A stretch of DNA of 64,000 nt from Asterochloris sp. CNOR1 (taxonomy: Eukaryota > Chlorophyta > Trebouxiophyceae > Trebouxiales > Trebouxiaceae): the NCBI GenBank assembly GCA_963969365.1, contig OZ017761.1, positions 1,984,001 through 2,048,000 on the forward strand, read 5' to 3'. The position numbers and the translations under genes were made by a program. The notes under the pieces are model-generated. The model searched no databases, was not told where the DNA came from, and saw only the letters and a program-made list of their open reading frames with translations. This document shows, piece after piece, positions 1-63,846 of this stretch; position 1 is the first letter of the stretch, and each line of letters opens with the position of its first letter.

Positions 1-3000
1 GTGGTACAGCGAAGTGGTGGTGGAGTCAGAGATGATCAGCTACTATGACGTGTCAGGTGGGCTGTACGCGTGGGCAGCGCGTACTTGATTAGTCCCATCA
101 AAGCCTTAGATTAGATGAGAAACCAGGGGTTACTGATGTGGCAGCCGCTTTGCGGTGGACTGCACAGCCACAGAGGCTGCACATTGATTGTGATCGAGGC
201 AGATCATCTGCAGATGAGCACTTGCCATGACCGGCCTGAAGAGCTGCCCACATAAGAAAGGAGAGGAGGACAGAGCTGGGGAGAGTTCTTGGCAGCTGGG
301 AGCTGCAGTCTTTGCATGTCAGCTCAAGGCTTCAGCTTGGGCCATCAAGAGAGGCATAGCAGCACTTGGGATTGGGCTGAGCCTGCACCATGCTGAGGCA
401 GGGCTGCAATTGTTGGCACACAGCAGTCCTCTGGTATGTCCAGCCAGGCAAGCTTCACATTGAGGTTATGTGACTGCACTGGGGACATAGCTTGTTATAT
501 ATATATTTGGCTCAGGCACAGCTCTTGAACAGTGCCGGGGCTCAGGTTCATGCTGCAAGCATGAAGTAGCATCGTCAGAGCCTGTAGGGCTTACCTGGGC
601 AGGGGCGAAAGGGGACTCTGGGCTGACCCTGAAAACCCCTGCACATTGTGCAGCACCTCGCTCGTGCCCTCTCACACCTCCCACAAACATGGCTTCCTCA
701 CATTGCGGGCTGCAACACTCTGCAATTCCAGGCTTCGTCAGGAGCACGCCTGTCCAGCTCACAACTGCTGAGGTCATGGCTGCCCTGCTGCAGGTTGCGT
801 GAACATGCGCGTCTGGGTCACTATCCAGGGCCATGCAGCTTCAGGTACCTCAGGCTACACCTTAGAACCCATATTTCCTCTCCCCTGTAGGCTGTTACAT
901 ATTGCGTCCCTGGGCCTTCACGGTCTGGGAGTTCATCCAGCGCTGGTTCGACGGCCACATCAAGGAACTGGGTGTCCAGAACGCCTACTTCCCTCTCTTC
1001 ATCACTGAGGACGCCCTCAACACAGAGGAGGATCACGTGGAAGGGTTTGCAGCAGAGGTGGGGTGAGCATCACCTGCTCAGCGACAAGGGCACTTGAGTG
1101 ATGAAGATAGCTCCTGAAGAAGTGACAGACCACCCGGGTGCCCACTCAAGAGTGCCTGTGCATGCGTGTGTATGTTACCAGGCTGTGTGGCAGCTGTGCA
1201 CATGCTTTCCTACAGTGGGCTCATCCAGTCTGGAGATCCTGACTTCAATTCACTAAGTCAGAAGTCTGGTGTCAGAAGGTGCCAGACCGGCAGGGCACAG
1301 GGCTTCTGCTGTACGAGAGGCTCGGTGTTTGTGCACGCATGGGCTGAATAGGACAGCGGCGCCCCTGTATGGCGCTGCTGCTGCCTCAGGTGTGGTGCAT
1401 GCGGGAGCCTCTGCAGTGTGTGCTGCACTCTCCTGCAATGGAGATCAACAGGCCTCCCACTGCTGCTGCCCTGCCATCTCTGCAGGTGGCATGGGTCACG
1501 CGGTCGGGCAAGACTGAAATGGAGCGACCCATCGCCATCCGCCCAACCAGCGAGACCGTGATGTACCCCTACTATGCACAGGTGAGTGATCCTCCCCTGC
1601 AGTGCAAGGCCACTGCACATCATGGACTGTTTGGCTGCCTGCAGCTCGTGGTCTGCACCTGCCAGCCAGCAGCAGCTCTTGCATGTGCAAGCTTGCTCAC
1701 AACCTTGAGTGTTTATATCACCACCTACAGGACAGTCATGTAGCCCTACTAGGCCCAGCTGAGCTGGGTTTGCAGATTGCAACCTGCTCCTCTGGTCAGT
1801 CTGCAGAGCATGCCTAGTACCACCTGGTGGTCAGCTTGCTGGAGCACCGCATTGAGTGCACAATTGCAGATATGGCCAGACAGGAGCTGGCAAGACTTAC
1901 ACCATGACAGGAGGGCAGCCCGCCCCATACAAGTTGATCTGCGGCCCTTTGATCTGCGATGTGGCCTGGGTGTCCCTGTGCAGTGGGTTTGCAACAAGGC
2001 AACGCGCAGATGAGAGCAGAAGGGGGGGCCAGGCAATCAAGCAGCATGTCTCGGGCAAGCTCATGGGCAGTTGCCTGTGCTCACCCCTTCCCCTCCCTAT
2101 GTGTAGCGGATCACCCACGGTGCCATGCCAGCAGTGCAATGAACTCTCACGCGCTGTGCAGTGGATCCGCAGCCACCGTGACCTGCCCCTACGCCTGAAC
2201 CAGTGGTCCTCAGTGGTGCGCTGGGAGTTCAAGCACCCCACCCCCTTCATCCGCAGCCGCGAGTTCCTGTGGCAGGAGGGGCACACTGCCTTTGCCCAGC
2301 GCAGCGAGGCGGAGGTGGAGGTCAACCAGATCCAGGATCTGTATGCCGGCATCTATGAGGAGCTGCTGGCTGTGCCCGTCTGCAAGGTAAGTGCTGGGGA
2401 TTGGTGCTTGAGCTCAATGGAGTTCTCTGAGAGCTCACAGTTGAGGTCAGAGGCAGCTAAATGATGGCTCGCTGTGCATCTGTGAGAAGCTGCCAGCTGT
2501 GCCTGTTTACAGGGTGTGAACAGCAGTCGACCACTTGCAATCAGCACTGCCAGGCAGCAGCTGCAAAGCCAAGGCATGCCCAAGGTTATCCTAAGCGTCA
2601 GGCCGTTCACACTACATGCAACCAGTTGCCGTCCGTGACAGTAGGCTGTAGACCCCAAGTAGCTGGAAACCACACAGAGACCATCACCATGAAATTTCAC
2701 CCCCTGCCTTGCTGAGTCCCCCGCCTGCGCTGTGCAGGGCACCAAGACAGAGAAGGAGAAGTTTGCAGGCGCGCTCTTTTCGCGCACAGTAGAAGCATTT
2801 GTCCCAGCAAATGGGCGGGGCATCCAGGTAAGGCGGCCCTGCAGGTTGCAGTTGGATTTCATGAAGCTGCAGCCTCCTTGCTTAGACTGGGCCCTGTGCA
2901 CATTCGGAACTGGCATTGCGTGGCTTGCATCTCACCTGATCGTGTGCTTCTGGAGGCTGCTGGACTGCAACCACAGCTTTCACCATGCAGGGCGGCACAT

Positions 3001-6000
3001 CCCACTGCCTGGGTCAGAACTTCAGCAAGATGTTTCACATCGAGTACGAGGCCGAGGACCGCTCCAAGCAGTTGGTGTGGCAAAACAGCTGGGGCTTCAC
3101 CACGCGCTCCATTGGCGTCATGATCATGGTGCACGGGGATGACAAGGTAGGCCTGCCAGGCTTAGGTCAAGAAGCCGCTGATGTGCTTAATCAATGGGAC
3201 TGGGCCGCTCCTGAGAATGATCTGATTGTGGGTGGCTCCTAAGAGTGATCTGAGCGTCGGTTGCTGTGACTGACAGCTGCCCAGATTCAGCATGTACCGC
3301 GTCAGTATCAGGCACAGGGACGACAAGGGGTTCTCCTGCATATGGTGCTATGTTGGGGGGTGCATGCGCTCATGGTGGCAGTTGCTGCTGTGCTTTCTGT
3401 GTATGAGCAGTTTGTGAAGCATATCCGACAAGGGTCTGCAGACTCGTATGGCAAGACTTCCTGCAGAGTCGCTGTTGTCTGGCCGCCTGCTATGGTGCAC
3501 AATGGCATCGTGATGGAAGCTCAGGACTGGGCATCATTGAGGGAGGATCCATGTGATTTGCTGCACGGGAAGTGAAGGGCTCCACAGAGTCAGTATGCAA
3601 CTTTGTAGGACAAGATGGTTGTGTTCTCATTGACTTTGCCCACCTTTTAAATATTGCTGCATGGGGATGACAAGTTGGCTGGAGGGCTCTGTAGCCCTGT
3701 CATGGCCTTGTCATGGGTGCCACTTTGAGAGGATGAGCAAGGTGCGAGGGTTGCACACATCTTAGGTACACCAGAGCACCAACCATTGTCTGCACAAGGC
3801 TGACATTTGCTGTACATGCTGCCCTGCACAACGAGGGATGAGCAGCTCCCCTGCCTGCATAATGAGAGATGCTGCCTGCACAAGGAGAGATGCTGCCTGC
3901 ACAAGGAGGGATGAGCGGCTCCCCTGCCTGCTCAAGGAGGGATGAGCGGCTCCCCCGCCTGCACAAAGAGGATGAGCGGCTCCCCTGCCTGCAGGGCATT
4001 GTCATGCCCCCGAGGGTGGCGCCTACCCAAGTCGTTGTCATCCCCATTCTGAACAGCAAGATGAGCGACGCCGACAAGCAGGGCATGCTGCAGCGCGCGG
4101 AGGACATAAAGGCATCCCTGAAGAAGGCTGGTGTCAGGGTGCAAAGCGACTCACGCGAGAACTACACCCCTGGCTGGAAGTACAACCACTGGGAGCTTAA
4201 GGCGAGCTGATGCAGATGCTGCAGGTGCTCCACAGGAGCCTGTGTCTCAAGTCATGGGTGACTATCTCACATCCAAGCTCAGGGCAGGGTGATATGGAAG
4301 ACACACGCTCTCCTGCCTGCCGCTTCTGAAGCAGGTCAGACTTGGCAACCTCACACTCCTGATCACCGCAAGCCGCCCGCCACTGTGATGGCACCTGAAG
4401 GCTTTAGAATGATGTCTGGAAGTGTGTCACCTGGCAGAGGGGCACTCTGCAGGGATGCTCAACCGCACTTCTCATGTCAGGTTGTTTGGCTGTGCAGAAT
4501 GCTGATGGTCTGGTGGAACACACATGGCGCACCTCAGTGAGCCGGAAATGGCACGCTGCTCTTCATAGCACGGGTGGGGCAGGGGGCTCAGTCCAACTAC
4601 AGATGCTGACAATCTCATTCTATAACATGTGCAGGGAGTGCCCCTACGGTTAGAGCTGGGCCCCCGAGACATGCAGGAGCAGAAGGTGATGGCAGCCAGG
4701 CGGGACACGGGCGCTAAGGAGAGCCTGGGATGGAACGAGCTGGCAACTCGCGTGCCTGCCCTGCTGGAGCAAGTCCAGGTGGGCTGGCAGTACAGTCCAG
4801 GACCCATCGCGGCGTCCCTTACTAAATTCCGTCTGCAACCAGATCTGGCATCTGGCTGCAGTGGCAAAGGCCATGCTGCCTCTGCATTGTGGGAACTGGA
4901 CGAGAGCATCTGCCCTGCTGGGGCAGGTCCAGGGAGGCTGGCACAGTAGTCTCTAGTAGTGTTAGTATGGAATTGTTGTTTGACCCGGAATACTATGGCA
5001 AAGCCAAACAGGGGGACCATTGTCAGCACCTGCTTTGCATCAGGCTGTTTTGAGAGAGGAAAGATTGGGGACGAGCGGGGCAAAAACAAGCGCCCGCACA
5101 GGGCTATGTGGGCTGGCAGTGCAGGCAATTGGACGCCTACATATGTGCACCAGCTGCACAGGGGTAGACAGTGAGGCTGCTCAGCAAGCAGCATGTAGCT
5201 GCTGCCCGGAAAACAAATCTTCCCTTTAGCAGGAGTTGCAATCATTGCAGGCAGCGCAGGTGATGCAGGAGCACCTTTAGCAGAGACAGCCAGCCAGCTT
5301 CTGTGGCAGGTGCTTGCCTGGTAGAACACTCAGGAATTTACTGCTACTGCTTCTGCATTGGACAGGCTGCCTGAAACACCAACAGGCAGACAGGGTCTGC
5401 TGGCAGGCGGTAGGCAAGTGTAACATTTTGGCTAGCTGACTGCAGGCTGAAATGTTGCGTGAAGCTCCTGCATGGCCTGCTTGACCTGACGACACTCACA
5501 TGTTGGCCTGTGGCTGCAGGCCGAGATGCTGCAGAGAGCACAGGCTGAATTTGATGGCTGCATAGAGTGCGTCGACAGCTGGGACGCATTCATGGCGGCT
5601 CTTGAGCGCAAGCACATGTGCCTGGCCCCCTGGTGAGGAACAGCAATAGGTTCCTTTGCCCCAGGCGTGCTCTTGCAGTTGAGGCTGCAGTGCTGAGGCA
5701 AAGCTTGCTGCTGTACCGTCATTGGCGTGTCTGCATCACTGCAGCTGCTCTGCCGACACCCTCCCTGCACTAAGCTGCAATGCGCCATGTGCGGCCTTCC
5801 ATCTTCTACAGCCTTCATTCAGCAGCCTGGCGGCAAGCTCGTGTGCACAATATGCATACAGTATACATGGCTGCCTTCAGGTGTGATGAGGAGGCTGTGG
5901 AGGAGGACATCAGAAAACGCAGTGCTACAGGGGATGCCATGGGGGCCAAGTCTTTGTGCATCCCTCGCGAGCAGCCTGAGCTGCCAGAAGGCACCAAGTG

Positions 6001-7876: not shown

Positions 7877-10800
7877 CTGGCTTCACTGCCAGCCCATAGG
7901 AGCCAGAGCTCTCAGCTGTCTGCGTGCACACAGCACGCTGTTGACGCCCTCAAACGCTCATGTCCACTGCAGGACCTCATCGCACACATGTACCTGCACC
8001 ACAACCCCTTCAACGCGCTCAGCCTGAAGCCGTTTGTGGAGCGCCTGGAGCCCCAGGCTGTCCTTGAGGGCTGGCACAACGATGTCCTGGAGTTTGTGGG
8101 GAACCTGGAAGGCCAGAGCGTCACGGGGGGCGGCCTGCTGCTGGCAGCCTACCTGATCGAGGGTGCTGGGGGTCTGCCAGCCCTGCAGCACCTTCAGAGA
8201 GGGCTGGACAGGACAGACAGCCTCACCCAGCAGGTGGGCGTGATTCTGCAGCATAACCACAGCACATGCTGCCTGCATTATCCTCGATGGCCAGTGATGT
8301 GCACCAGCTGGTTGCAGGGCGGCATTATGCAGGTCTCCTCTGTGTTTTGACACAGGGTTGACATGCATGAAAGAGCTGGCAGGCTGCGTGTGGGCTGCCT
8401 GCAGCTGCCTTGGTGCTCAAGGTGGCAGGCTCATGGCTGAGGAGGGTGGCTTGCTTGCAGGACGTCCCAAAAGGCTGCATGATGCTGCGCAAGGGACGCA
8501 CAGGTCCTCCAATTGTGTCAGCCAGCGTCGACTGTTCCCTTCTTCCCCTAAGTCACTTGCAAGCATCAACTTTGCCTGCGCTGCAGCTGATTGATGATGC
8601 TCTGGCAGCCCACCCAGGCCTGGCACAGACTCTACGCAAGGGCATTTGGAGGAGCACCTCCAGCAGCCTCCAAGGGGCAGACGGCCACAGCCAGGCAGTT
8701 GCCCCAGGGGCGGCTGCAAGCAGCAGCAGCGGCAGTGCTGGTGGGGCCAGGCAGGGCACTGGGCCAGCTGCATCAGACCAAGCTGCTGTCCAGTCCACTG
8801 GCGAGAACTGTGGTCAGGCCACTGCGGCTGCAATTGAGAAGGCAGCGCAGGGAAATGGCCTGGAAGCTGCAGCCGTGCTGCAGCAGGTGCTGGAGATTGC
8901 CTTCAGCTGGCTGGCGTTCGAGATGCAGGTGAGAGCAAGCACACACCTGATTCGGAGGCCCGCCAATGGTCTCTTCTGGCTGCTGGGCGCTTGCCTGGTC
9001 GCAGCACCAGGCTGCCAGCCTTGTGCTCAGCTGGCTGGTGTGATAAGCAAGAGGATTGAGCCCAAGGCAGGGACTGGACATTGTGCAAGCTGGGTCCTCC
9101 AGCAGCGCTCCTGGAAGCTGCATGTCCAAATTTGCGTTCAAATCTTGTACAGTCTTCATACATACTACCTGGCCTGCAAAGATTTATTGTCTTCCTTGGA
9201 CAGCAGAGGCAGAGTGCCAGGGCGTTTGCTGGCACCCCTGCAGAGCCCTGCAGGCCCTGAGGCAGCTGCAGACCTGCCGCCCCAGGGTGGACATCTTCTT
9301 GAAAGCTGCACACCAAGCACCAAGGCTGACATGACCAGTCCCGGTGCGCTGCAGGAGCAGGACGGCTGTGGGCGCTTTGTCGCTTACCTGGCCATGACAG
9401 TCCTGACCCTCTTCGAGCTGCCAGCGCTGCAGCAGCCCTACCCTGACTGCGCAGTGCTGACATCAGTCGTGCCGGCGGTCATGCGCGCCACAAAGCGCAT
9501 TGCCGCAGGTCAGTGCAAACACACGCCGTCCAACCCTGCCCTGCACAAGCCTGCCATGTTGGTGTTAGGAGGATGTCATCAAGGCAGGGTCCACTTGTAC
9601 TCGGCTGCATCACTGGCCGCCCATCTGACATCTGCTGGGGTTCTGCGTGCTCATTGACCCAAGCTGGAGCTGGTGCTGACGCAAGCCAGCCCGGACAGAG
9701 CTGGTGCTGTCCTGCACCCAGACCAAGGCCAGCTCAAACAGAGCTGGTGCTGTCCTGCAACAGACCCAGCCAGAGCCCCTTTTCCAACACAGAGCTGGTA
9801 CTGCCCCTGCACAGATCCCCCTTGCCCACACATAGCTAGTGCCGCAGTGAAGCAGCTCAATGCCAGGGCCCCTTGCCCACACATGGCTGGCGCTGCCCCC
9901 TGCAGGGCGCCAGATGTACAACTGCACGGGCTGCCCCTGCGACCGGAAGCCCATTGAGATGGTTCTTCTTGTTCTTCGGCGCCTGGCTGAGGGTTACCAG
10001 CCCATGGCCAGCCTGCTGTCTGCCTCAGGTGCGCCTGCTGGTATTGTTCATTAGTGCTTCATAGGTTTGAGGCAGCAAGGGAGGACTGTCTGGTTTTCGA
10101 AGTGCAGAATTCATCCTGTGGCAGTCGGCCGATGATTCTCAGCCAGTGAAAGCCTGTTGATTGCTTCAGGTGATGCCTGCTGGGTTTGGCTGCCTTGTGG
10201 AGTTGTGGCAGCAATGAATGGGCTGTCCCCTTCAAAAGTCTGCAACTTGCGGCAGCAGGCTGAGGGACGCTAGCCTGGAGGCCCAGTCTACTCTCTGCCT
10301 CAGCAACACATGCTGAGATCGTCTGCTGCATGAGCGCAAAAGCAGCACTTGTGGGGAAGCAATGGGGGGGATCGTCCCCTCCCTTGCTTGCAGGGCGCAA
10401 CCTGCGCCACCTGGCAGAGGGGTGGCAGCCCATTTCTGGCCTGCTGTCTGCCTCAGGGACATCTGCTGAGCTTGGCTGCTGCATGGACATCCGCCAGTGG
10501 GTGGGGGGGGCATCCCCGCTAATCGTCCTGTGTCATCTGGGAGACTATCCCCATGGCCAGCCTGCTGTCTGCCTCAGTACTGCGGGACAGCGTGAGCTAT
10601 GTAGGGGCAGTTTTGATGCTTGCCAGCACATCGTGGACGGCGTCCCGTACAGCGGTCCTGCTGACTCCGCTGGCCCTGCCTGCAGGCCTGACCCCCTTTC
10701 TTGTGAAGCTGCTGGATGACGAGGACCTCACAGCCAAGCAGGCACTTCACCTGCTGGACCTGCAGCTGCGCGAGCAGGTGACAACGGTCTACAGGGGTCA

Positions 10801-13800: not shown

Positions 13801-16800
13801 CAGCTGCGGTCCTACTCTGCATGGCCCCCTGTCTACCTTCAGTGGGGCAGCAGCTGCTGGGGATGCAGTGGGCAGGGGCACGCCGTCAGGTGGGCATGCC
13901 TACAAGGACCAGTGGTATGCTGCACTGTGGGCCTCGCTGTGACCCTTTGCTTTTGATCAACCCTGTGCACCACAACCTGTGCTGCAACTCTGTGTACTGT
14001 CTCTCCAATAGGCGGCGGCAGCAGCCCCCGCAGTGACCTTTTCAGGAGCGCTGCTGAAGCCTTTGCACCGCCTCAAGCGAGCCTGCTGCTGCATCCCTGC
14101 CACTGGTCTCCTTCATGCATGCAAGCCCTGTCTGGCCTGGTGCACAACATATGCATGTTGCTGCACTCTGAGTGTCATCACTGCAGCAGCTCAACGCTCC
14201 TGCAGCTCACATCAAACCCCTGCAGGGGCGCTGCTGGATGCCATAGCAGGCTGCACGCTGCTCAACGGCACGCCCTGCTCAGGGGACCCTGGAGATGCTG
14301 CTCTGGCTGAGGAGGCGGTGCAGTGCCGCCTGATGCTGGACAGCAGCCTGGCACATCTGGGGGAGGGTGGCAGCAGTCTGGCCAGTGGGTTTGTGGAAAG
14401 CATGTTGGTGCCTGGGTCACAGGTGAGGCCCTGCGGGCTTGGAACCTGAAAACAGTCAGGCTGCTAGGGGGTAACAGTTGGACTTGAGGCTCCCTCTGTG
14501 TGCTCGAGATGAGGTAGTGAGTTGAGACAGGGCAGCAACCTGGTCATCAGCTTCACAAGTCAGTAGGCTGGCCTGCCTCTGGGTGCATGCAGTAGGCGCT
14601 GCTGCCGAAGTCTGGGAATATGCTGCTGCAGCCTCGTTCAAGCTTGTCTTGGGGACAGCTGATGGGGACTCGGGATTGATGGTGCGGCTTTTTCAGCAAC
14701 AGTCAGTCAGCAAGCAGCCTGCCATCATGCAGAGCTGCTATTGTCAGGCCACAGGCCAGCCCCTTGGTGGCATGAGCTGGCCTGCTCCGGATCTATGAGA
14801 CTGTGCAACCTCAATCTTGTTCTCCCTGCTTCTCAGGCTGGCATGGTGCCTTCGGAGGAGGTGATGCGCAGCTGCGACTGCCCCTTCTGCGCTGCGTATC
14901 GCAGCCGACTGCTGGCTGGCAGGAAGGGTGGGGCGCTGCCAGCAGGTGACTTGGGTGTTCTGACGACCAGGATGCACTGCTGCTGTCTGAGAAATGGGGG
15001 TCTGCAGGGCCATGCAGCTGCACGCTGAGGTTGGCTACTTTGCTGGGAGCAATCCTGCGCATGCGCAGTGCTCCTCCAAGAAAACAACAGCACAGCAAAT
15101 GGCAGAAGCGTCACAGCAAAGCTGCGCTCATGCCTGTGCAGTGCACCCTTAGCGCCCCTGCAATGTACTTGCAGCCCATGTCCACGACGCGCTGCCTGCT
15201 GTGCAGGCGAATGCTCTGCAGCCAGCTCAACTCCAGCCACCAATGGGCAGGGCACCAGCACGGTGATGACCACCAATGGCAGCGCTGCTGGGGCAAGCAA
15301 GGCGCCTACGCCTGCCAAGTCCACCACTCAGCTGCCCTTGAGGGACCCTCTGGCTGCGAATTTCAAGGCCACAGCTGTCATTGGCATCTCAGGGAAGGCC
15401 ACCCCAGTGTACAGGACCAATGATCCCTTCACCTTCAAGGTCAATGACTTCAAGCTGCCCAGCGATTTGGTGAGAGACTGGAAACAAACTTGATGTGGGG
15501 CCTTGAGGGTGTGCTTGGGCAGAAGGTGTGCCAGCCTTACTGTTGCGGAGCCGGTGCTACCGCTTGTTGCCTGCTCTGGGTGTACTCAGCTGCTCCCTGT
15601 GAAGCCAGCTGCCACTCTGTCTTGTTCTCCCTTTCAAGTGTGGAAGCTGCCACAGCAGGGCTAGGTTGTTACTGCTATCACTTGTTTCACATCTGCTACG
15701 GTCAACCATTCTGGTCACCCTGTCCTGGTGTGTCTACTGGAGGCCCCACCTTTGCTGCAGGTGGAGGACACTGTGCAGAAGCACCTGCAGCTGTGCTTCA
15801 CCCTGCAGCCTGCCTTCCCCCCCTCTGCCAGCATGATCAACATAATTCCTGGTGCAGGTGGAGGACACTGTGCAGAAGCACCTGCAGCTGTGCTTCACCC
15901 TGCAGCCTGCCTTCCCCCCCTCTGCCAGCATGATCGACATAAGTCCTGGTGCAGGTGGAGGACACTGTGCAGAAGCACCTGCAGCTGTGCTTCACCCTGC
16001 AGCCTGCCTTCCCCCCCTCTGCCAGCATGATCGACATAAGTCCTGGTGCAGGTGGAGGACATTGTGCAGAAGCGCTACCCGGCATGCTTGGCAGTGCTGA
16101 TCACAGAGAGCCTGGAGCTGGAGGGGCTGTGGGTGCCTTCCAGCACGCCACGAATCAAGGACAAGGTGGGGCTGGCAAACAGCAGATGTCTGTAACTGCA
16201 CGGGAGGCCAGCTTTATGGGCCGAATCGTGACTGTGCAACTCACTCAGAAGTGTCCATTGACATTCAGACTGTTGCCTGGGGATCTGCTCTGCACATATC
16301 CCCTGGAGTGCAACCACCCCCAAGGAAGGATGGCGTTCACCACTTGCCTCAGAAGCCCAGCAAGGTGGCTAGACCTGTCCGTGGACACTGCTACTGAGCA
16401 CCAACCCTTGCGCCTCTCTGCCCACAGGACGGCAGCGACGTCCTGCAGTTCCAGCGCTTCAGGGTGTTTCACCCCCTTCCCAAGCAGGCGCACCACGGCA
16501 TTCTGAAGACGCTGTGGGACAAGCGGGTGCAGTGGAATCAGGGGCTGAATGCACGGCGCACCAAGCAGCTGCTGCAGGTCAGCATAGTTGCCTGTGCTTT
16601 GCGTCTACATGCCTTGCTGGAAATGACCAACGATCATGTGTGCCTGGCAGGAGCGTGCATGAAGCAAGCATGCTGGACAACGGGCCAGTCTTGGTCTCTG
16701 TGCATTGCTGCATGCCAGCAGAGACCTTATAAGTGCCTTGCCTCATCTCTTCAGCGCCCGCAGGTGCGCTCCAGGCATTCCTTCAGCAGTGGTGCTGCCA

Positions 16801-25070: not shown

Positions 25071-25934
25071 CGCGGGAGGCTTGCAACAAGGTGCGGATGT
25101 GTGACTGCCGACTGGGATCCAGACAGAGGGCAGGCTGGCAGCACTGCACCCACCGTGTTCAACAGCGCGGCATCGCCTGTGAGTGGTGGCGGGGTCTCTT
25201 GCAGCAGGTGCCTGGCTGGTGGCGGCGGCACCACCTCCAGAGTGCTGAGCAGTCCAGTCCCGGCGCCCACCACCGCGTTGCCAGCGTCGGTGAGAGCTGT
25301 CACTGGCTGGTCTGTTACCGGGGGAGGGGGACCTTGCAGGAGGTGGCGCCCGCCAATGCCAGTGAGGGCTGCAGTGAGGCCAGTGGCGTCATTTACAGCT
25401 CCTCCCACCGTGCCCTGGAGGCTCTGTTGGACCTGCAACAGAGCTTGACACTGTCAGCATGCAGTGGCAGCTGCCGCAGCTGTGCTGGAAGCAGGTCTCC
25501 GCTGGCACATGCAATGGCCAGGTGGGTTCGCGGCAGGCTTGCAACAAGGTGCGGTTGCGTGACTGTCAACTTGCAACAAGTTGCGGATGTTTGACTGTCG
25601 ACTGGCACCCAGACAGAGGGCAGGCTGGCAGCACTGCACCCACCGTGTTCAGCAGCACGGCATCGCCTGTGAGTGGTGGCGGGGTCGCTTGCAGCAGACG
25701 GCGGCCAGGCTCCTCCTGTAGCAGACAAGTTACACGTCGAGGGCTGCCAGGCAGCAACTTTGAGGCTGCATTGTCAGCAGAGGGTATACCACTGCTGACA
25801 TCGCCAGCTCGACGGGGTCAGCACTTGCAGATTGAAGCACAACAGCTCCTGTAGCGCGGCTATGAGCCCACCTGTGCAGCCGTTGACAGTCCAGCAAAGG
25901 CTCCAGCCAGGAGCAGGCTGCGGATGGCGACCAT
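25071..25934 (-). CDS. Secreted Pro-rich protein with RRLLQ motifs (3' part lost in gap)
   Basis: Exon 1 (25934-25872) encodes a signal peptide starting MVAIRSLLLAGAFAG and ending STAAQ. Exon 2 (25715-25644) reads EEPGRRLLQATPPPLTGDAV and exon 3 (25432-25154) carries GRHLLQGPPPPVTD and PPPPARHLLQETPPPLTG. All junctions are phase 0. Exons 2 and 3 end with the same block (PPPLTGDA..LLNT), and the intron sequence after each is also duplicated, so whole exon-plus-intron units were copied. The gene runs into the N gap and its stop is not seen. Signal peptide plus short Pro runs suggest an extracellular or wall-associated product (inference). No enzymatic domain is visible. Confidence 0.75.
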
Positions 25935-43920: not shown

Positions 43921-44175
43921 TCCCCAACAGCTTGCCGATGCACACATATGCGCCGCTTTGTTACAGTGCCAAGCACCAACAGGGGCAAGCTGCCGCCACC
44001 CGCTGACAGCAGAAAGTGCAAAGTCTGCTGCCCCGTCCTCTCCCACACACAAACCTGCTGATCAACGTTGACCCGTTGACTGCTGTAATCTCCCCAGGCT
44101 GCAGCTCAGCCCATTGCCACAAATCCATCACCTTGTCACCGCCCAAGCACTCCATTGCCTGCGTGTTGTAACGGC

Positions 44176-47100: not shown

Positions 47101-50100
47101 GTACAGGAAGGTGATCTGCACAGGTTCAGCAATTTGGTTGGTTGGTCTTGCAACCACTGGAGTCGAAGCATGTTTGGTGCTGCAGGTCGAGGGTGGGCTG
47201 GGGGCTGCGAGGTGTGGCGCAGTGACAGAGCCACTGACACCCACCGCAAGCAGCAATGGGATGCATGTACCTTAAGTTTTGCGTTGGGCGACCTCTAACC
47301 CCTCTGGGCCACATGGAGCGGTGCAAGCAGCCAACACAGTCTCATCTCACTGGGCCACGGTCGGGCATGCGGTGCAGGCAACACTCAGCCCAGCTGAGCA
47401 ATGCAATGCGGTGCCCCAGCTTGTGCAGCATGCATTGCATGACTTTTATCACATGAATGCTTACCAGGGCTATCCAGAGGTCTCCAGTGGTGAAGCCCGA
47501 GAAGTCAAAGACTGCACCAGTGTTGTAGATACGGGGGGCAGCCACCACATGCTTGAAATACTGTAGCCGTTCCTCGCCCCCTGCAGCAGGAGTGATGAAT
47601 GCTCAGTCCCCAGGAACGGCAGCATGAAGGAACGCTGCTGCCTTCCAGAGATGGGTGGGCACTTGACACCTGCTGTCCATCCCTCCTCAACCCTGCTGCC
47701 TGAATAAGGCAGCAGGCAGGGCGCCGCTGGCACGCTGCCAACACCCACATGCACCGTGGTTCACATGCAGTGCGGCAGCTAGGCTGCACAGTGCAGGCAC
47801 AAACACTTGCACAGCAACTCCCACACATTGTAGTGTAGTGAACCAGCCTGAGCTGATGGCTGGTTGGCGCCCCCTAAGCCACAAGCTGCATGAGGGCTGT
47901 GGAAGGGTGTGCTGCCCCACGTGCAGGGCCTCTACCCCGCCAGGATGCAGCGTGCATGTGGTCTGCAGAGCTGAGAGCTGCTGCCAACAAAACAGGTGCG
48001 CAGCATCTCCTCCCCGCAAGCTGCCTACCTGAGTAGTCACCCCTGGAGCCCAGGTAGGAGGCAGCATGGCCAGGGATCCACGAGATGATGGTCACAAACA
48101 GAATGCCCACCATGATGGCGCCCTGCAAGCAGCACAGGGAAGGGTTTGGCATGGCCACACACAACCCAGTGAACACCCGTCAGGGCCTCATCAAACAATG
48201 GAGACCCCAAACCACCACCCCTGAATTGGATCAGGGCCTCTTACTCTGTCTGCGGGCCAGGCCAGGTCTGCAACTGTTGAGTCCACCCCCGCCCCGCCCC
48301 CCCAGAGAATTCATGGGCTGCCTCAGCCAGTGACACAAACTGCAGCAGGCTGCCGACAGGCACCACTGGCAAGCCGCGCTGGCAGGCTGGCCCAGCCAAT
48401 GGGTTAAAGCTGCAGCAGACTGCACACCACACTGTGCCTGAGCTGTGCGGGAGTGTGCAACAGCCAAAGGGATGGCGGGCATGCGCGGGAGCCTTACACA
48501 GATAGTGACTAATATCTACTAACCTCCCGACACCACGGTCCCCTGCTGCTTCCTATGATTAGGCTAGTGGCCCAGCGGCTCAAGGCCCAAGTGTTGCTGG
48601 CAAATGCTGGCAACACCTCCAATTGCAGAACCCCACCTTGGCGCTGCGCTGCATGACCACAGTAATGATGGCCAGTCCACCACAAGCAGGTGGGTTGATT
48701 GCACAAGCAGCGCTGGCAGCGGTGCTATGTCACATCTCAGCTCACCTTGACATTGCGCTGCATGAGCACAGCAATGATGGCGAGCCCAGCCAGGCCGAGC
48801 CACAGGGAGCCAGCCTCCATTTTGTCGGTGTTGCATGCCATGGAGGTGGAGGGAGTTGTGATGGCAGAGCTCAGATAGTTGGGGACAGCAACGCCGTCCT
48901 CGATGGCGCAGATGCTGCTCATATCAGAAGCCGAGATGGTGTACGTGGGTACCTGGGAGCCTGCGGGGCAGCCACCTGCAGCACAGGGTGTGCATGACAG
49001 CTTTACCTGAAGCCCACATCATTTGGGCTTCTGGAACAAGTGCTTCTCTGTGGCCGGCGATCCCATTGGGCTGGCTGCCTGCAGCACAGGTGGAAATGGG
49101 GGCAGCCAAGATGGTGGTGCAGCTCAAGAGGTCTGGGTGGCGTACTGGGGGGCCTGACAGCCGCCTGAAGCACCGGGGTGAACCTTGACTTCTGTGACAT
49201 AGGCAAACATCCTGACAGCCACCGCACATGGTTAAGCATTAGCTGCCATCTCCAAGACCAGGCATTCACGAGCAATGCCATGATGACGTCCTGGTGGCCA
49301 GCAGCAACCTCAGCAGGTGAGCACAAAGCAGGGCAGCAGCAGTTCTGTAATTGAGGGCATCACGTGGCAGGAGCAGCACCTCCACCGCGGAACAGACAAC
49401 ACGCAAACCCCTGCTTCAAGAAGCACCACACAGCATGTGCAGCGCCTTGACTGCACAACAAGCACCAGGGGTAGCCTCACCCCCTATCTGCAGCCCACAG
49501 ACTGCACAACTAGCACATCGCCCCCTGTCTGCAGCCAACAGACTGCACCACAAGAAACTCAACCCCCTGTCTACAGCCAAGAGACTGCACAACGCGCGAC
49601 TCACCCCATGTCCATTGCCAAGCAGCATGCAGTACGAGCCCAGGTCAGCTGCAGCAGAAAGCGCTCACCCAGGGTGACAAGAGTCGAGGGGTCGTATGTG
49701 ACGACTCCCAGACCCTCAGAGGCCTGCAGGCCGATGAAGGCCAGAAAGAGGCCAATGCCAGCAGAGGTTGACAGCATGATGGACCTGCAGGGACAGGATT
49801 GGTCATGATGCAACTTGTGTAGATGAACAAATTCACAATGAGATGCAGCAGAGCCCAACCAGATGCCACCCTGGACGCTGCTGCTGCTCAAGAGGTAGGC
49901 AAGCAGATGCACTGCATGCAGCAGGGCACCCAGGCAGCTAAGAGCAGAGGTCTGCTGGACATCCAGCAAAGCAGTTCACTGCTGCCTGAGGCACATATAC
50001 AGAGACCTGATGCCTGAAGAGGGCTGGGTGCCATGCTGCCCTGATGATGTGCCATGCTGCTTGGGCAGGCCTCCACTGCTGTGGCCCATTTGCTAGAGGC

Positions 50101-56516: not shown

Positions 56517-59500
56517 GCGCAAACAGGGGCGGCTCCCTCAGAGACATTGAGGACCTCAAGGAGGACCTTGCTGCTCTTGAAGAGGAGCGAGATGGGGCTG
56601 CAGAGGCTGCCAGGGGTGCTGTGGCCAAGGCACGGCAGTTTGCAGACCATGCAGCCAGCCTGAGGGCTCGGGCGCTCAAGGCCATGCTGCAGGGCCAGGA
56701 GGTTGAGGCCAGGGGCCTGCTGCAGGTGTGCTCTGTGCTGCTTTGCAGTCTGGTGTCTGTGAATGCGCAAAGGCCTTGCAGGAGGACCAGAAGGGGTTTG
56801 CCAGCAGCGGCTGCAGGTGTTCTCACAGCTGCTCTGCGCTCAGCAGTCTATTCATGACCGCTGCTGGAGGCCATGCAGCAGAGTCCAGAGGGGAGGCTAG
56901 AGGCATGCTGCAGGTGCATTCTCAGCTGCTGCTCTGCACCCAGGCGTTAATGACTGCGTGGACACCATGCAGCAGGGCCAGGAAGGGGTGCCTGTGTGCT
57001 GCCTCAGCTTCGGCTGCGTGCAGCTGGTCACTATGGGCCCTCAACCTGCATGTCATGCAGCAGGGCCAAGTTGCCGCAGTCCGAGACTGCAGCAGTGCCC
57101 CTCCTCCTCAGATATATATGCCGTTGTGCTGTTGATGGCAGGCCTGATGAGCTTAGGAGGCTCCTTGTTGCAGGCGCCTCACACTCTGCGCCATGCAGCA
57201 GGCACAAGTGGTTAAGGATGGTGGCCTCTTTCAGGCTTGCAGTCCCTCATTCCCTGCACACCACTGCTCCCTAGACAGCAGATTCGAGGCGAGGGAAGCT
57301 CTGCACAGTGCATGAAGAGGCTTGCAGTCCCTTGTTCTCTGCATGCCCTGCCTCATAAAGAGCAGACATGAGGCGCTGGAAGTTCTGTACATTGCAAGCA
57401 GAGGCCTGCAGTCTCCTGTTCCCTGCACGCCACTGCTCCCTAGACAGAAGACACGAGGCGCTGGAAGTTTCGCACAGTGCAAGTAGAGGCCTGCAGTTCC
57501 TGTTCCCTGCACACCAGTGCTCCCTAGACAGCAGACATGAGGCGCCGGAACATCTGCACAGTGCAGGCCCCAAAAACTCATGTGTGGCCCTCCCATGGCT
57601 GTGCAAGGGTACAGACCGCATCCTGCATTTCCTTTGCAGTCTGCATATAACTGACCCCATGTCTGCTGCAGGAGGAGACAGTCATGCTGAAGGTCTCTCG
57701 ATGGCTTGGGGTGGAGCCAGACCTTGGCAAATGATGTCAGCTGTTTTGCATGCAAGGCAGGGCGGGGGAGTCAACTTACTCCATTCAAGTGGTTCTTCGA
57801 CGATTCTGAAGGCTGCAAGCGTGCCTGCCTGGAGCAGGAACCCCGCCATGGCTCTGATCCTGGCTGCCACCGCAGCCCCATAGCGACAATGCCCACTTCA
57901 TGGCTGCCCACTGCAGGCGCGGCCTTCTTGCAAGATGTGTGGGATAATGCTGGGCCCAGCTGCCGCTGCCGTCCAGCAGCAAAGAAGGCACTGCCTGCTT
58001 CAGGAGCGGCATACAAGCAAGATGTGCAGGGCAATACTGAGCCCAGTTGCCGCTGCCGTCCAACAGCAAGGATGACTATCACTGTCACTGCCCGCTGCAG
58101 GCTTGGCATACATGCAAGCTGTCCAGGCTGAGGCTGAGCCAGGCTGCACCCACAATGCTACATAGCAAGGGTGGCCCCCACTGTCGCTGGAGCGGCAGGG
58201 CATTCAGAGTCCAGCTGCAGTCACGATTCAGTAACAAGGACAGTCATCAATCCTACTGCCTGCTGCAGGAGCGGGCAGTCATGCTAGAGGCCTTTGAGGG
58301 CGCCAAGGAGCGTGCTGAGAATAACCGTTCTCTGGCAAAGGCGTTGGAGAAGCGAGTGGGTAGGACACGATGTGTTGCAGCAAAATGTGGATGCTGTTGT
58401 CATGGTAGGCTCAGTTCTCAGTTGCACATTGTGGCCACAGTGAGGTGTATGCAGGCTGCTGATTCCAGCATCTCTGCCTGCAAGGCGCAAGCAGACGTCG
58501 CTGCAAGTCCTCCAAGGTTGTGGTCCTGGTCGCTGGTCATCAAGCTGCTCCTCTAACAAGACTTGTGTCTGCAATCAGCTTCTGCAGCAGCTATTCAGGC
58601 AGTGGAGTCGCATGCCAATAGCAAGCAAGGACGGTGTCTCAGGGAAGGCGGCAGCGAAAGTATGTGATGGCTGCCCGCTCTGCCTGCTGGAAGCTTCAGC
58701 AGTAATTTCACTGCAATTGTTGCGTGCAGGAGAGCGCCAGACACAATTGATCGCACTTTTGGCCTCCCGCGGCATGATCAGGCCGGGTGAGGCCCAGCGT
58801 GCGCGGGAAGCCAATGCCGAAGAATCCCAGAGTACGCTTATACCAAATCCAGTGCCAAGCGGTGGCCTCCTTGAATCAGCAGCCAAGTGCAGCAGGCACA
58901 AGTTCATCTCCGATATCTGGCTGTGGATAGACTGCTGGTTTGCCGAGCAAAGCACCAGCGTTCCCATGGCCTCGGTCAGAGAGTCACTGCGAGGCAATTT
59001 GGCTGCGTTGCTGAGAGCTGGCATCTGTCACAAGCAGGCGACATGACTGCACCCCTGTCAGTCTGCCTGCTGTTCTCCCCGCAGGCATGCATAAAGAGGG
59101 CCAACAGGGCTGCCTGCCGTCACCAAGTCTGCCGTCACCAAGCAAAACAACTCTCTGCTGCCGTACAGGCTATAGGAGAGCAAATCAGGATGTGGAACAA
59201 ACCTTCAGGGCGCTGGAGAGGGAAGACAGGCAGCAGCAGGACCGCATCAGCCAGCCACGCAGCTCTGCACGTGAGCACCTGCCTGACAGGCACCACAAGC
59301 TTTCACCTCACACTTGTCTAGTTAGCTTGTTGCTTGTGATCTCCTGAGCTGGCCCTGCAGCTCTCCCGCACTTCTAGTGGGGCAGCCTGCCGTCAAAAGC
59401 CTGGCCAAGGCTGAGCACGCAATTTCCCCTGCTCTTCATCACGCCGCCAGCAGTTATTTTTTCTGGGACTGTCGTGTTCTGCAGGTGGAGGGCTCACTTT

Positions 59501-62500
59501 CAGCTGCCAAGAAGGCAAATTAAAGTGCTGTGGCCTGGTGCAGGCCCTGCAAGCCAGGATGTGGAAGGACGCTTTGTGGAGCTGGAAAGGAACACGCTGG
59601 AGGCCATGATGCGGGCCACAGACCAGCAGAGCACACAGCAGCCAGGGGAGATCTCCCCACCCTCTGCAGGTCAGAGTCTATGACATGTGTAGGCTGGACC
59701 ACTGGGGTGTATCCTGGCAAAATGTGCAGCAGCTGGAAAGGGCCATGCCAACTGCAGGTTGAATGCTGGTGATAGTGCTCAGAGGGTGCACACATGTCAC
59801 AGAGCCATGGAATGCAGAGCAGGCAGAGCAGAAGGCACTTCAGTGCCTGCAGGCCCGTCGTCAGGCAAAACACATTCTAGTCACATGTGGTACATGCCAT
59901 GGGACTCTTGTGCTTCAGTGTGATGCTTTGGAGAAGATGCAGCCTACCAGCTATTCAGGTATATGGCGACCCGGAACAGGGTCCTTGGGAGGAGGTGCTC
60001 ATGTCCTTCAGTTGCTTCAGCTGAGGAGTGCTTGGCTGCAGGTAGCAGCAGTAAGCCACTAAGGTCTGACCCAGCAGAGGAGAGGCCTTGGCGACCCAAG
60101 CCTGCTGAAGACTACTGGCAGACAGAGCGCCCAGGGAACAGTCCCAGCACGCAGCAGCCTGCAGGTAATCACAGACACCCAACAGCTGCGCAGCTGGCTG
60201 GCCAGCCCTGTTGTTGCTTCTGAGTCCGCTGGACAAGGTGGTCCTCTTGGGCGTGCCAGCCTGCCCTGCTGCCGCCTCGGAAGCACTGGGTTGGTCACAG
60301 TGGTGAAGGCCCTCGTCAGGCAGAGAAACACAGACGCCTTGAAGTGCAGTGCAGCCTGCATGCCAACTCCAGGAGCCTGGCCGCCAGAGGCATTTACAAA
60401 TGCAGTGAGCAAAACATGCTCCAACCCTCCAGGCCTGTTTGGAAAACAGAGAGGGGACTCTCAGCAGCGCAGCCAAACAGAGTAAGGGCGACGCTACTGC
60501 ACCACTCACTCGCAGCTGGGTCACACTTCAATGCAGCCACTGCTGCTAACACTGCCTCAACCGCTCTGTTTGGTCATCCGCTGCTGTCAGTGCCGTGTCG
60601 GCAGTTTTGTTTGACAGGGAAGCAGCACTGCAATCTCCAAAGCATGGCCAAAAGTAACTCTGGCCAATAGCATGTGGGGTAAGGTGGCTGAGGAACTCTG
60701 CTCATTGCAGGCTCATCTGGCAGGGAAGCAAGCGCTGCCACCCCCAGACCAGCATCAGCAACACAGCCCGGCAGGACTCAGGGCGACACCAGCTGGTGGG
60801 AGGCAGCCGAGGGCCTGCTTCAGAAGGAGCGGGGCCAGTACTCGACCGCCCAGCTCACGTCTGAGGCTATCCAGGAGCTGCAGATCAAGGGGCAGCAGGT
60901 CACCAAGCTGTTGACCAAGCTTGTCAACAACCGGGTGCAGCATGGCTTGGACCCCTCGGTGAGCTTGAAGCTGGTCAGCAGCAGGGTGCAGTATGGCTTG
61001 CACCTGTTGGTGAGTTGCCAGCATGCAATGCAGAAGTGCTGCAGTGCAAAAGGGCAGCCAGGTGTCTCAAATGCCTGACCACAAAGCTGGACAGCAGCAG
61101 GGTGTGGCCTGCAGATTGCAATGCGCTGCCAGTGCGCGTATGGAAGAAAGCTATGGAGCTGAGCTGCTTGCACAGATGATGGTCAATGGCAGTTGGAGTA
61201 TAGCAGCAAGTTGTCTCCAGGCAACCATCTTGAAAGGGCATGTGGGAAGTGCATTTGCCTGGCTGCAGGTGCACTACCTATTGAAGCCGCACTGCATGAT
61301 GTGCCTGCTGAGCCGCCTCTCTGACAAGCCAAGAGTTCCACACTGCTTGTCACAGTGCCCTTGGCTGCAGCTGCACGTCTTGCGGCTGGAACGTTTGAGG
61401 CTGCACCCGATAAATTGTCACTGCAGCCTGGCTAGCATCTCCTTAAGCTTGAAGGTGTATCGCTGCTCTGGCTGCAGGTGCACCACCTGGTGAAACTGCA
61501 TCGGCTGATTTGCCTGCTGAGCCACTTCTCAGACGCTGGAGTGAAGCCTCGGCCCCCTGCATCTGAGTGGACACCCAACATCCGCCAGCGCTTGATGCGC
61601 GACTCCATCCAGGGCATCATTGATGCGCTGGACAAGGCAGAGCCCAGCCGCACTCCCACTGCCTGGTGAGCACCTGGTGGAGGTGCAAGGCCTCCTGCTG
61701 TCGCACTCTCGAGGGCTCAATATTACACACTGACCTGCACACAGGGCATGCCTTGCCCACCGGGTCGCCTGGGCTGGCCCGGGAAAAGGATCCTTCTCTG
61801 GGCCAGCAGGATATGTAAGTGTCTGTCCTGCCTCCGGCTTCTGCAGGGCAGCTGCAGAGCTGGAGCTGCCCAGGGTGCAGGCCGCTGCAGTGAGAGAGAG
61901 AGCTCATCAGGGCAATGCAATATCAAAACATATTTCATGCGTGTGAGTTCGCCAGCAGAAGGAGCCCTGCTCTGCTGGTGTCCTGCAGCTGGCAGCCAGT
62001 TGAGCGCGGCCAGGTTCAGGACCTGCAGCACAACAACCGACGCCCACAGACATGTTGTGCTGCTCTCATGATATGCCGTGGTCCTGGTTGTGCCCTGCAG
62101 GCAGCAGCTGATGGGTCGCCCCCTGGAGCAACACAGCTGATCATTTCATGCAGGCAGCAGCTGATGGGACGCCCCATGCTGAGTCATGTCATGCAGGCAG
62201 CAGCTGATGGGTTGCTCCCTGGAGTAGCACCGCTGATCCATTCCATGCAGGCAGCAGCTGAGGGGATGCCACCTGGAGCAATACAGCTGATGCATTTGTG
62301 CAGGCAGCAGCTGATGGACGCCTCCTGGAGCAACACAGCTAACTCACTCATTTTCATTTCATGCAGGCAGCAGCTGATGGAGCGCTCCCCTGGAGCAACA
62401 CCGCTAATTCATTTCATGCAGGCAGCCGCTGAGGGGACGCCCCCTGAAGCAGCACAGCTGATGCATTTATGCAGGCAGCAGCTGATGACGCCCCCTGGAG

Positions 62501-63846
62501 CAACACAGCTCTTTCATTCATGCAGGCAGCAGCTGATGGGTCGCCCCCTGAAGCAACACAGCTGACTCATTCATCTTCATTCATGCAGGCAGCAGCTGAT
62601 GCAGCGCTCCCCTGGAGCCACACAGGAGGAGGTGCAGGCCCAGCGGCGCAACCTGTCCCCACCCGTTGCACAGCTGTTTGTGCTGTCCATGGCCCAGGCC
62701 TTCAGCATTGAGCGGGGCGATGCAGAGCGCATGGTTGCAGCGGCTGTGGCAGCGCACACTCGAGGGCTGCTGCTGGATGCAGTTGCCACCATGCGGCAGG
62801 TGAGCTGACGTATGTACTGGGCGGCAAATGAGAGGGTGATGCCCACCGGCAGAAAAGGCAGAAACAGGATGCTGTGCTATCCTTGGCCCAGGCCTGCAGC
62901 TGAAGCGTATCAATGCTGATCAGGTGGTTGCAGCAGCCGCTCTGTCAGCTCCGCTTATAGCTGAAGGCCTGGGCCACAGACAGTACAGTATCCTCTTTCT
63001 GGTAGCAGCCATGGCAGTGCACACCCAGGGGCTGCTACTGCGCAGGGTTGAGCTGGCACCCATGCTCAATGCCTGTTGCTTTGCATGGCAGCAACAGCTG
63101 TCGCCGTGCCCACTTGGGGGGTGCTGCGGGAGGCAATGACTGCCACGCCAGGCATGCTGCAGCGGTTTGTGGCCCTGCCGCACACATGCAGCATGCCCCT
63201 GTGCTCCACGACCTGCGCACATGCCATGGATGGTCTGCAGCATGAGACATGATGCAGCAACAGTCTCTTGGTGCCAGCCCCTGGGCAGTCTGATCTGGGC
63301 TCTGTCCTGCTAGCAGCCAGCCGCCTGCTGGATGCCTTTAGGGGGGTCAGTGCTGGATGCATTGGGCTGCAGTATGCGAGGATGCGCTGGTGCTGCTGCA
63401 GATGCCTGTGCTGTATGGTTGTAGCAGCCATGGCAGCGCACTCCTGGTGATGGTGTCATGCGAGAGCTGAGCTGATGCTCCTACAACATTATTGGTGTGC
63501 TGGATGGCAGCAGCAGCTGGAAGGAGACTTCTGGTTGAGATGGCTGCCCCAATGTCCCCTGTTGCAAGCCAGCACTGGCAACGTAAGAAATGCCAGCCCT
63601 GATTGCGAGACGCTGCTGCAGGCCAGCACTGGCGACACCAAGCGTGCAGATGCCGAAATGCAGCGGTTGGACCGGGTTTTCCGCACTTTCCCCCCAGCTT
63701 CAGACTCAGCGGAGCTACAGATGGTGGCCTCTGGGTTACAGGGCTTTCTGACTTCAAGTGACAGGCGGACCCTCCTGGACGCCTACACGCGCATCGCCAG
63801 CAGCATGCAGTGCCGAAGGGCCTGCGCTCAGGCGCTGGGCTGCTGA
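56517..63846 (+). CDS. Coiled-coil protein, family not recognised (start missing)
   Basis: Exons 56517-56725, 58269-58355, 58588-58633, 59169-59270, 59544-59669, 60042-60164, 60711-60958, 61478-61665, 61847-61889, 62593-62799 and 63622-63846 agree in phase, giving about 534 residues. The N-terminal part is a Glu/Ala/Arg coiled coil (LKEDLAALEEERDGAAEAAR and AFEGAKERAENNRSLAKAL). Two consecutive exons are homologous: QDVEQTFRALERED and QDVEGRFVELERNTLE. A Pro/Ser-rich linker (RPWRPKPAEDYWQ) follows, then helical domains (TSEAIQELQIKGQQVTKLLT; IRQRLMRDSIQGIIDALDKA; VAQLFVLSMAQAFSIERGDA) and the last exon, RLDRVFRTFPPASDSAELQM to ACAQALGC. The 58588 exon is small and least certain. A cytoskeletal or trafficking scaffold is possible but unproven. 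Its introns are the richest in exon-edge copies. Confidence 0.7.
56730..57215 (+). repeat. Decayed tandem copies of the donor edge of the first coiled-coil exon
   Basis: The exon end reads GCCATGCTGCAGGGCCAGGA ... CTGCTGCAG|GTG. Similar blocks with 'CCATGCAGCAG' and 'CTGCAGGTG..TTCTCA..GCTGCT' recur about every 100 bp at roughly 56810, 56870-56930, 56970, 57050 and 57190, with increasing decay. Confidence 0.65.
57238..57570 (+). repeat. Tandem repeat, about 90-bp units, 3.5 copies
   Basis: Units share 'CCACTGCTCCCTAGACAG', 'GACATGAGGCGCTGGAAGTT' and 'GCACAGTGCA..AGAGGCCTGCAGT'. They lie inside the intron between exons 56725 and 58269. Confidence 0.85.
57890..58125 (+). repeat. Tandem repeat, about 100-bp units, 2.5 copies
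   Basis: Units share 'AGCTGCCGCTGCCGTCCAGC', 'CAAGATGTG' and 'GGGCAATACTGAGCCCAG'-like stretches. They occupy the same intron as the 90-bp array and include repeated CTGCAGGC acceptor-like sites. Confidence 0.75.
62098..62592 (+). repeat. Array of nine copies of an acceptor plus exon start
   Basis: Units of about 40 to 65 bp begin TGCAGGCAGCAGCTGATGG, continue CGCCCCCTGGAGCAACACAG and end CTGATTCATTTCA-like before the next TGCAG. They start near 62098, 62151, 62192, 62246, 62299, 62365, 62418, 62470 and 62521. The tenth, real one leads into the exon at 62593 (CAGCTGATGCAGCGCTCCCC). Each copy keeps a usable TGCAG, so this is a ladder of competing acceptors. Confidence 0.92.

Follow-up and report, generated by a model that had tools for sequence, protein, structure and literature searches.

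Copies of exon edges in the adjoining introns of Asterochloris sp. CNOR1

Exon sequence, some of it degenerate, has been described in introns of its own gene by Exonize (PMC12343006) and by Ivanov and Pervouchine 2022 (PMC9013439), and the introns of the green alga Asterochloris sp. CNOR1 hold such sequence as well. Compared with tandem exon duplication as set out in these two papers, it is here the exon edge that recurs, keeping to its own side and apparently without clear coding constraint. The second paper gives the share of exon bases with an intronic homologue as 0.08% in fly, 0.06% in worm and about 2% in human (PMC9013439); our value of 2.3-3.4% at ≥80% identity (score cut-off 20-16) comes from other software and another definition and compares only roughly. 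In the potato RdRp gene, a tandem duplication spans an intron/exon border and carries splice signals, a single case with a new spliced intron (PMC4974935), whereas in the 294 kb analyzed here copies occur at 102 junctions, decayed and lying inside existing modelled introns. Introners (PMC9860276) are likewise a genome-wide process acting on introns; here, in contrast, introns of different genes have hardly any sequence in common. Intron gain by AGGT duplication is similar in that tandem duplication occurs near splice-like words, but here existing introns grow and none was shown to be new. Templated insertions and serial replication slippage produce short local copies at a distance, whereas the copies here are nearly all direct and always lie across an exon edge. 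A literature search that left subscription papers mostly outside its reach returned no account of junction copies at such density.

To our knowledge, transposon-free intron lengthening is poorly documented because intronic duplications quickly lose their trace. A conserved exon provides a fixed reference against which edge-crossing duplications remain legible as fossils in about one intron in five, and the sizes and directions of local duplication become measurable within a single genome. The copies also raise the question of whether splice sites themselves attract copying.

Exon edges in their own introns

We analyzed a 64-kb window together with 23 ten-kb stretches sampled across the 56-Mb genome, 294 kb altogether. 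A purpose-written semi-Markov gene finder, whose unsupervised training used these same 294 kb, yielded 512 exons and 458 introns; as it does not model GC donors, the exon border at 4201 in ProRS and the final ProRS exon were placed by hand. Ten proteins picked from the 23 loci as recognizable-looking, three of them shortened, all matched Pfam families (10/10), and copies occur at 32/304 junctions within those ten loci. We compared 80-bp junction blocks with their own intron at an ungapped score of at least 16 in 410 of the 458 introns (820 junctions), excluding the 48 introns shorter than 120 bp.

A copy was found in the own intron at 102/820 junctions and in 90/410 introns across the window and sample loci. 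These amount to 136 matches, where other introns predict 1.6 and the own intron in reverse complement yields 1. Donors contribute 61 matches at 48/410 junctions (other introns, length-scaled, 0.71; reverse-complemented own intron, 0) and acceptors 75 matches at 54/410 junctions (0.91 and 1, respectively). The window is typical, with copies at 27/186 junctions versus 75/634 in the sample loci, and copies at a range of identities were present in loci sampled across the genome. The sequence-only reading of the window had proposed a genome-wide process detectable as an excess of own-intron over other-intron matches; that excess holds in ~0.3 Mb with purpose-made gene models, confirming that exon-edge copies are real beyond the window and affect about one intron in five. 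Its separation of the process from introners also stands, both on the near absence of matches to other introns and on the sequence between edge and copy, which matches other loci in 7/55 cases versus 12/55 control intron segments. Consistent with the intron lengthening it envisaged, copies are associated with longer introns: a near copy (≤130 bp) was found at 43/408 junctions of introns >350 bp and at 12/332 junctions of introns of 170-350 bp, 2.9 times as often. The acceptor motif is strong and TGCAG occurs in introns too, but other, reverse-complemented and wrong-side introns are almost matchless and motif-matched decoys gave far fewer matches, leaving chance, composition or shared splice signals an exceedingly improbable source of the copies.

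The copies keep to their own side. Exon ends (END40) recur in the downstream intron in 23/249 cases and in the upstream intron in 0/249, exon starts (START40) in the upstream intron in 17/249 and in the downstream intron in 0/249, and exon interiors were copied in 3/430 cases in each direction. Direction-free copying would give 14.4 wrong-side matches and we observed none, which, together with the own-intron excess, upholds descent of the copies from their own host exon edge. Whole-exon duplication was rejected on the same two zeros. Local pairs were direct in 497 cases and inverted in 17 (arrays counted many times, and under a filter different from that of the pair-class counts below), a ratio on which we rejected inverted templated insertion. 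A spliced exon-exon joint is crossed by 1/60 matches, so the template looks unspliced and an origin as cDNA-derived exon copy was discarded.

The same adjacency rule, with exon ends recurring in the intron that follows, is predicted if the introns are themselves duplicated exon gained by AGGT tandem duplication, an idea to which the pattern had earlier been related. Donor-acceptor similarity at score 12 is somewhat enriched (5/456 introns versus 2.05 expected), but at score 16 it is found in 0/456 introns with 0.11 expected, and isolated copies have median positions of 0.32 and 0.29 along the intron, roughly one third of its length and away from its far end. We regard this origin as very unlikely, and the earlier link to it is not borne out.

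Copies at individual junctions

All ten donor-side places previously listed for the window hold a measurable copy, eight of them clear. The two weak ones belong to the ProRS donor 3146/3147 (3115..3674, plus strand), where copies of the last 20-32 exon bases lie at 3299-3328 and 3655-3674 with gapped scores of 15 (near 3310) and 16 (near 3660; 18/20 bases). At the ProRS donor 4778 (4756..4943, plus strand), parent block 4756-4789 and copy 4910-4943 are identical at 30/34 positions, with the GT changed (gapped score 26). Donor 10028 (9984..10577, plus strand) has three copies, at 10127-10188, 10412-10468 and 10550-10577; the copy near 10400 reaches a gapped score of 33, and that at 10550-10577 is identical at 28/28 positions and ends exactly where the exon ends. 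A Pfam search gave no match from which to name the family of this gene, and the label of UFD2-type ligase for the gene at 7973-16577 was dropped after Pfam and PDB searches lent it no support.

On the minus strand, donor 35977 (35761..36015) has copies at 35863-35906 and 35761-35829 (gapped score 24 near 35880). Two donors of an AZG-type purine permease follow on that strand: 46288 (45928..46309), with a copy at 45928-45958 (gapped score 23), and 48746 (48634..48788), with a copy of 43 exon bases plus GTG at 48634-48679 (gapped score 32) whose flanks have no visible relation. On the plus strand, a 102-bp duplication at 41707..41882, with the junction near 41720-41750, is tandem-like with small gaps (gapped score 27), and donor 56725 (56681..57240) has decayed copies at 56773-56856, 56870-56958 and 57190-57240 (gapped score 36 at 56900). 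Exon-end copies with 51-bp spacing lie at 60917..61104 on the same strand (HSP 60917-61104, ungapped score 29), the first two in one exon per the gene model. Intronic placement, which had been claimed for all ten, fails in the gene model near 60970 and near 10400, the latter copy lying in an exon called at 10394-10591; exon calls of the gene finder within relic regions (10394-10591, 62101-62565) are probably false.

On the acceptor side, five of the places listed earlier are clear. The acceptor of exon 16052-16165 has a 97-bp x 3.3 tandem array at 98% match (15756..16073, plus strand; near 15761), and a 70-bp junction block at 33273..33524 (minus strand) is duplicated 182 bp apart, with a score of 30 at 33440, between two predicted junctions. 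Copies also lie upstream of exon 58269-58359 (57660..58293, plus strand; score 30 at 57670) and 209 bp upstream of the acceptor of exon 61478-61665 (61259..61534, plus strand; score 41; near 61270), the latter running from the exon start to about +57 and on the intron side only to -10. At 62091..62623 (plus strand), a 54-bp array of about 7 units by TRF carries TGCAG and exon-like sequence, and most units of this 62098 array are called exon by the gene model. The places near 44500 and 63565 are weak (scores 16-18). The one given as 3840-3994 is a real 31-bp array (3823..3993, plus strand) that runs up to the acceptor of exon 3995, but it is wholly intronic and holds no exon sequence. Exon 31227-31372 has a copy of its start, beginning at the exon border (30925..31283, plus strand), that was absent from the earlier list.

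Selection might retain the copies as alternative splice junctions or as decoys, as in tandem alternative exons. GT is present in 22/44 donor copies and AG in 31/48 acceptor copies, and synonymous changes are in excess (0.358 versus 0.274 ± 0.026 expected), an excess compatible with weak or past constraint on either parent or copy. However, by our estimate GT and AG are retained no better than the mean copy identity gives, mismatch rates by codon position are nearly flat (0.21, 0.17 and 0.22), and stops are at chance level (7 versus 8.7 ± 2.9 expected). Exon starts never occur downstream, so the copies are not whole-exon duplicates. The ProRS and AZG permease copies are not exons, as both proteins are contiguous with known structures once the copies are spliced away; ProRS aligns unbroken across the 3146/3147 joint to solved ProRS. 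We therefore consider selected retention improbable. As judged from stops and codon positions, the copies appear to carry no clear coding constraint, and the suggestion that they seed alternative exons finds no backing there.

Proposed duplication across exon edges and possible short-patch copying

The explanation we prefer, at a probability of roughly 0.5, is that local direct duplications cross exon edges and leave relics in the adjoining intron. Such duplications would occur at many places in the genome, those within exons presumably being mostly purged by selection. Where the duplicated stretch lies across an exon edge, the original edge would remain in use and the copy would land in the adjacent intron, to be spliced out and to decay without clear coding constraint while the intron gains length. 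Conservation of the parent exon and of the splice consensus would keep the exon half readable longer than purely intronic copies, and introns would appear filled with junction relics.

Tandem arrays are placed at random relative to junctions. TRF arrays span a junction in 12/44 cases (13.4 ± 2.6 expected), or 3/11 at ≥90% match (3.1 expected). Among abutting pairs, 4/41 are junction-intron (4.5 ± 1.9 expected). Detection is nonetheless 3.7 times higher at junctions than in introns (77/420 versus 67/1362), or 2.9 times when edge-near intron windows serve as baseline (19/296). Part of this edge bias is exon conservation, which in simulation raised junction over intron detection 1.2-2.2 fold, but the observed ratio exceeds every simulation run. 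In the pair-class counts, made after removal of low-complexity and low-period matches (315/501 HSPs retained), exon-only/intron pairs show no excess (39 versus 35.1 ± 5.4 expected), though conservation should favor these too. Pairs at ≥90% identity in these counts hint at a junction excess (4/23 versus 1.5 ± 1.3 expected); they are too young for conservation bias, and the hint speaks against the preferred explanation.

The rest of the duplicated unit departs further from that view. The simulations assumed simple neutral rates with a single conserved exon, and their percentages serve as guides. Among non-abutting junction pairs, similarity extends into the rest of the unit in 3/34, compared with 23/29 and 46/59 simulated (about 78%); for exon-intron pairs the counts are 11/39 against 35/49 and 45/70, and intron-intron pairs, at 23/33, are nearer the simulations (115/129 and 157/182); in TRF arrays the whole unit is duplicated by definition. 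For the most part, decayed junction copies are short blocks standing alone, and the remainder of the supposed unit shows no similarity. Of the junction copies, 87/102 contain 12 or more exon bases, and in 61 of these 87 the intron flank lacks detectable similarity. The rest-of-unit tests go against preservation bias as the full explanation, and ordinary tandem duplication does not fully account for the junction-centered part of the copies. The earlier description as tandem duplication of exon edges is kept for the edge copies themselves; the random arrays and the missing rest of the unit count against its tandem part, whereas the hint among young pairs points the other way. We infer that isolated junction copies are edge-crossing duplications that lost their intron half and are spliced out, but the speed of this loss is unexplained by edge-crossing duplication. 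The alternatives are unusually rapid erasure of the intron half and short-patch copying that begins at splice sites.

The second option is a tentative one: repair or replication at a splice-like intronic word (TGCAG or CAGGTRAG) would switch to the real splice site, copy 20-60 bases of exon edge and return. Such a lineage process, placing patches of exon edge plus splice consensus into the adjacent intron from a seed at the splice site, would differ from tandem and exon duplication as well as from introners; we think it possible but doubtful. If true, it would steadily supply intron growth and decoy splice sites. On the intron side, blocks often stop close to where the splice consensus ends (donors at +5/+6 in 11/48, acceptors at -14 to 0 in 29/54), but slow decay of a conserved consensus also predicts a sharp end. 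Supporting short patches are the dissimilar flanks, an edge-to-copy sequence no more repeated than controls, and the non-abutting pairs without similarity in the rest of the unit, 31 junction-intron and 28 exon-intron versus 10 intron-intron, by our estimate far above what placement and conservation give. On the other hand, the strict one-sidedness demands that switching always run from intron to exon. Decoy AGGTR words in introns acted as sources in 5/104 and 6/93 cases, near the intron baseline, which also speaks against short patches. Intronic TGCAG words did so in 15/296, or in 30/350 looking upstream, the latter slightly above the interior baseline of about 5% and in favor of short patches; on the decoy counts as a whole we rejected copying driven by the motif. 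Some seemingly isolated pairs are tandem with small gaps, for which reason gapped extension was run as a check on ungapped matching; by eye, the L009 donor and the L018 acceptor are pairs of this kind.

Exon edges recur in their own introns

The genome comprises 56.38 Mb in 21 contigs, C1–C18 measuring 2.0–4.5 Mb each and C1 carrying TTTAGGG telomere repeats at both ends; the window lies on C16 (1984001–2048000). Both this type of telomere repeat and the genes present point to the green lineage. We analysed the window together with 18 + 5 10-kb stretches spread over the chromosomes (294 kb in total), using a semi-Markov gene finder trained on the 294 kb itself. It predicted 512 exons and 458 introns (median 317 bp), with CAG|GTGAGY as the donor and TGCAG|G as the acceptor consensus. 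As checks on these models, the 456-residue ProRS, two of whose exon ends were placed by hand, aligned throughout with solved ProRS, residues 3–530 of the 627-residue permease aligned with AZG1, and 10/10 sample proteins, picked as recognisable, had Pfam matches. The predicted acceptor is highly uniform across the sample (T, G, C and A at −5 to −2 each above 90%, preceded by C in 61%), which may stem partly from the model's fifteen hand-picked seed sites. One ProRS intron (window 4202–4634) has a GC donor (AAG|GCGAGC) and a TGCAG acceptor, and the protein joins in frame across it.

We matched the 80-bp block at each junction to its own intron beyond the block and found copies scoring at least 16 for 48/410 donors and 54/410 acceptors in the 294 kb. 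These amounted to 61 donor and 75 acceptor matches, compared to 0.71 and 0.91 expected from other introns, and reverse-complementing the own intron left 0 and 1. At least one edge copy was present in 90/410 introns (window 23/93, sample 67/317). Direction was strict: exon ends were copied into the downstream intron in 23/249 cases and upstream in 0, and exon starts into the upstream intron in 17/249 and downstream in 0, where 10.0 and 4.4 wrong-side matches would be expected if direction were irrelevant. Exon interiors were copied in 3/430 cases in each direction, and 1/60 matches crossed an exon-exon joint. Gapped blocks had a median extent of −46 to +18 around donors, whose copies lay 70–332 bp away (10–90% range), and of −17 to +30 around acceptors, with copies 74–214 bp away (same percentiles). 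At window 10550–10577, the sole perfect copy (28/28) among three relics is the farthest from the edge, whereas the younger copies would be expected close to it.

Arrays and isolated junction copies

Ungapped direct matches within a locus were strongly local, with 2–5 sample pairs per million cells (score at least 20) at 15–200 bp, 0.07 at 3–6 kb, where three loci supply the strong pairs, and 0 at 6–9.5 kb. In L004 and L006, two sample loci outside the window, strongly matching direct repeats are separated by about 3.0 kb and 4.2–4.6 kb and are perhaps tandem gene copies. At window 25500–25612, a block containing a 32-bp array recurs 458 bp upstream. Local pairs were 497 direct versus 17 inverted, with arrays counted many times over, and filtering left 184 families. 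Relative to the same shapes placed at random, junction-intron pairs were in excess (39 versus 21.0 ± 4.1), intron-intron pairs fewer (58 versus 74.8 ± 6.3) and exon-intron pairs near expectation (39 versus 35.1 ± 5.4).

Arrays and abutting pairs are placed at random relative to junctions, in small numbers: 12 of 44 TRF arrays (period at least 18) spanned a junction (13.4 ± 2.6 expected), and 4 of 41 abutting pairs were junction-intron (4.5 ± 1.9 expected). When pairs of at least 90% identity were taken in their place, 4 of 23 were junction-intron (1.5 ± 1.3 expected). We read the arrays as ordinary tandem duplication. The 143 non-abutting pairs were edge-rich (junction-intron 35 versus 16.6 ± 3.7; intron-intron 36 versus 54.6 ± 5.8).

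Similarity in the remainder of the supposed unit was found for 3/34 non-abutting junction pairs (simulations 23/29 and 46/59), an intermediate 11/39 exon-intron pairs (35/49 and 45/70) and 23/33 intron-intron pairs, closest to simulation (115/129 and 157/182). Among 87 junction copies, flanks showed similarity in 22, no detectable similarity in 61 and were too short in 4; between edge and copy no repeat family was found within the 294 kb. Isolated junction copies have the contiguity expected of edge-crossing duplication, but their intron half is missing. The reading we favour, at a probability of roughly 0.5, is that duplication would cross the exon edge, with the exon side preserved in readable form and the intron half lost, a loss that this reading does not account for. 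A short-patch process seeded at the junctions themselves is less likely.

A copy within 300 bp was seen for 77/420 junction windows, 67/1362 intron-interior windows, 19/296 edge-near intron windows and 9/418 exon windows 40–120 bp from an edge. In simulations of neutral tandem duplication that kept the exon conserved, junction/intron ratios were 1.2–2.2 over 14 parameter sets; exon conservation therefore accounts for much, but not all, of the edge bias that is seen.

Nature of the copies and published systems

Mismatch rates by codon position were 0.21, 0.17 and 0.22, splice dinucleotides were retained in part (GT 22/44, AG 31/48), stops numbered 7 (8.7 ± 2.9 expected) and the synonymous fraction, 0.358, lay above the expected 0.274 ± 0.026. 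From these sequence features, we therefore read most copies as probable non-coding relics. The synonymous excess would fit some change on the parent side, weak past constraint being the alternative. At junctions of longer introns a copy lay within 130 bp about three times as often as at those of shorter ones (43/408 versus 12/332). Median intron length was 505 bp with a copy and 284.5 bp otherwise, a comparison of lengths uncorrected for target size.

Of all exon bases, 2.3–3.4% had a homologue of at least 80% identity within an intron of their own gene, compared to 0.08% in fly, 0.06% in worm and about 2% in human in PMC9013439, where a different program was used. According to PMC12343006, Exonize detects unannotated or degenerate exons in introns, and lower eukaryotes show fewer events; a potato case in PMC4974935 is a single duplication spanning an intron-exon border. 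Within the open-access literature searched, the copy density and edge-only form in this alga appear new.

The gene finder calls exons within regions of exon-edge copies at window 10394–10591 and 62101–62565, and automatic annotation of the genome may hold exons, true or false, in such regions. Predicted proteins at two further sample loci match flagellar families (CFAP47/CFAP65-like domains at L010, WDR35/IFT121 at L022), which suggests that the alga has retained flagellum genes.
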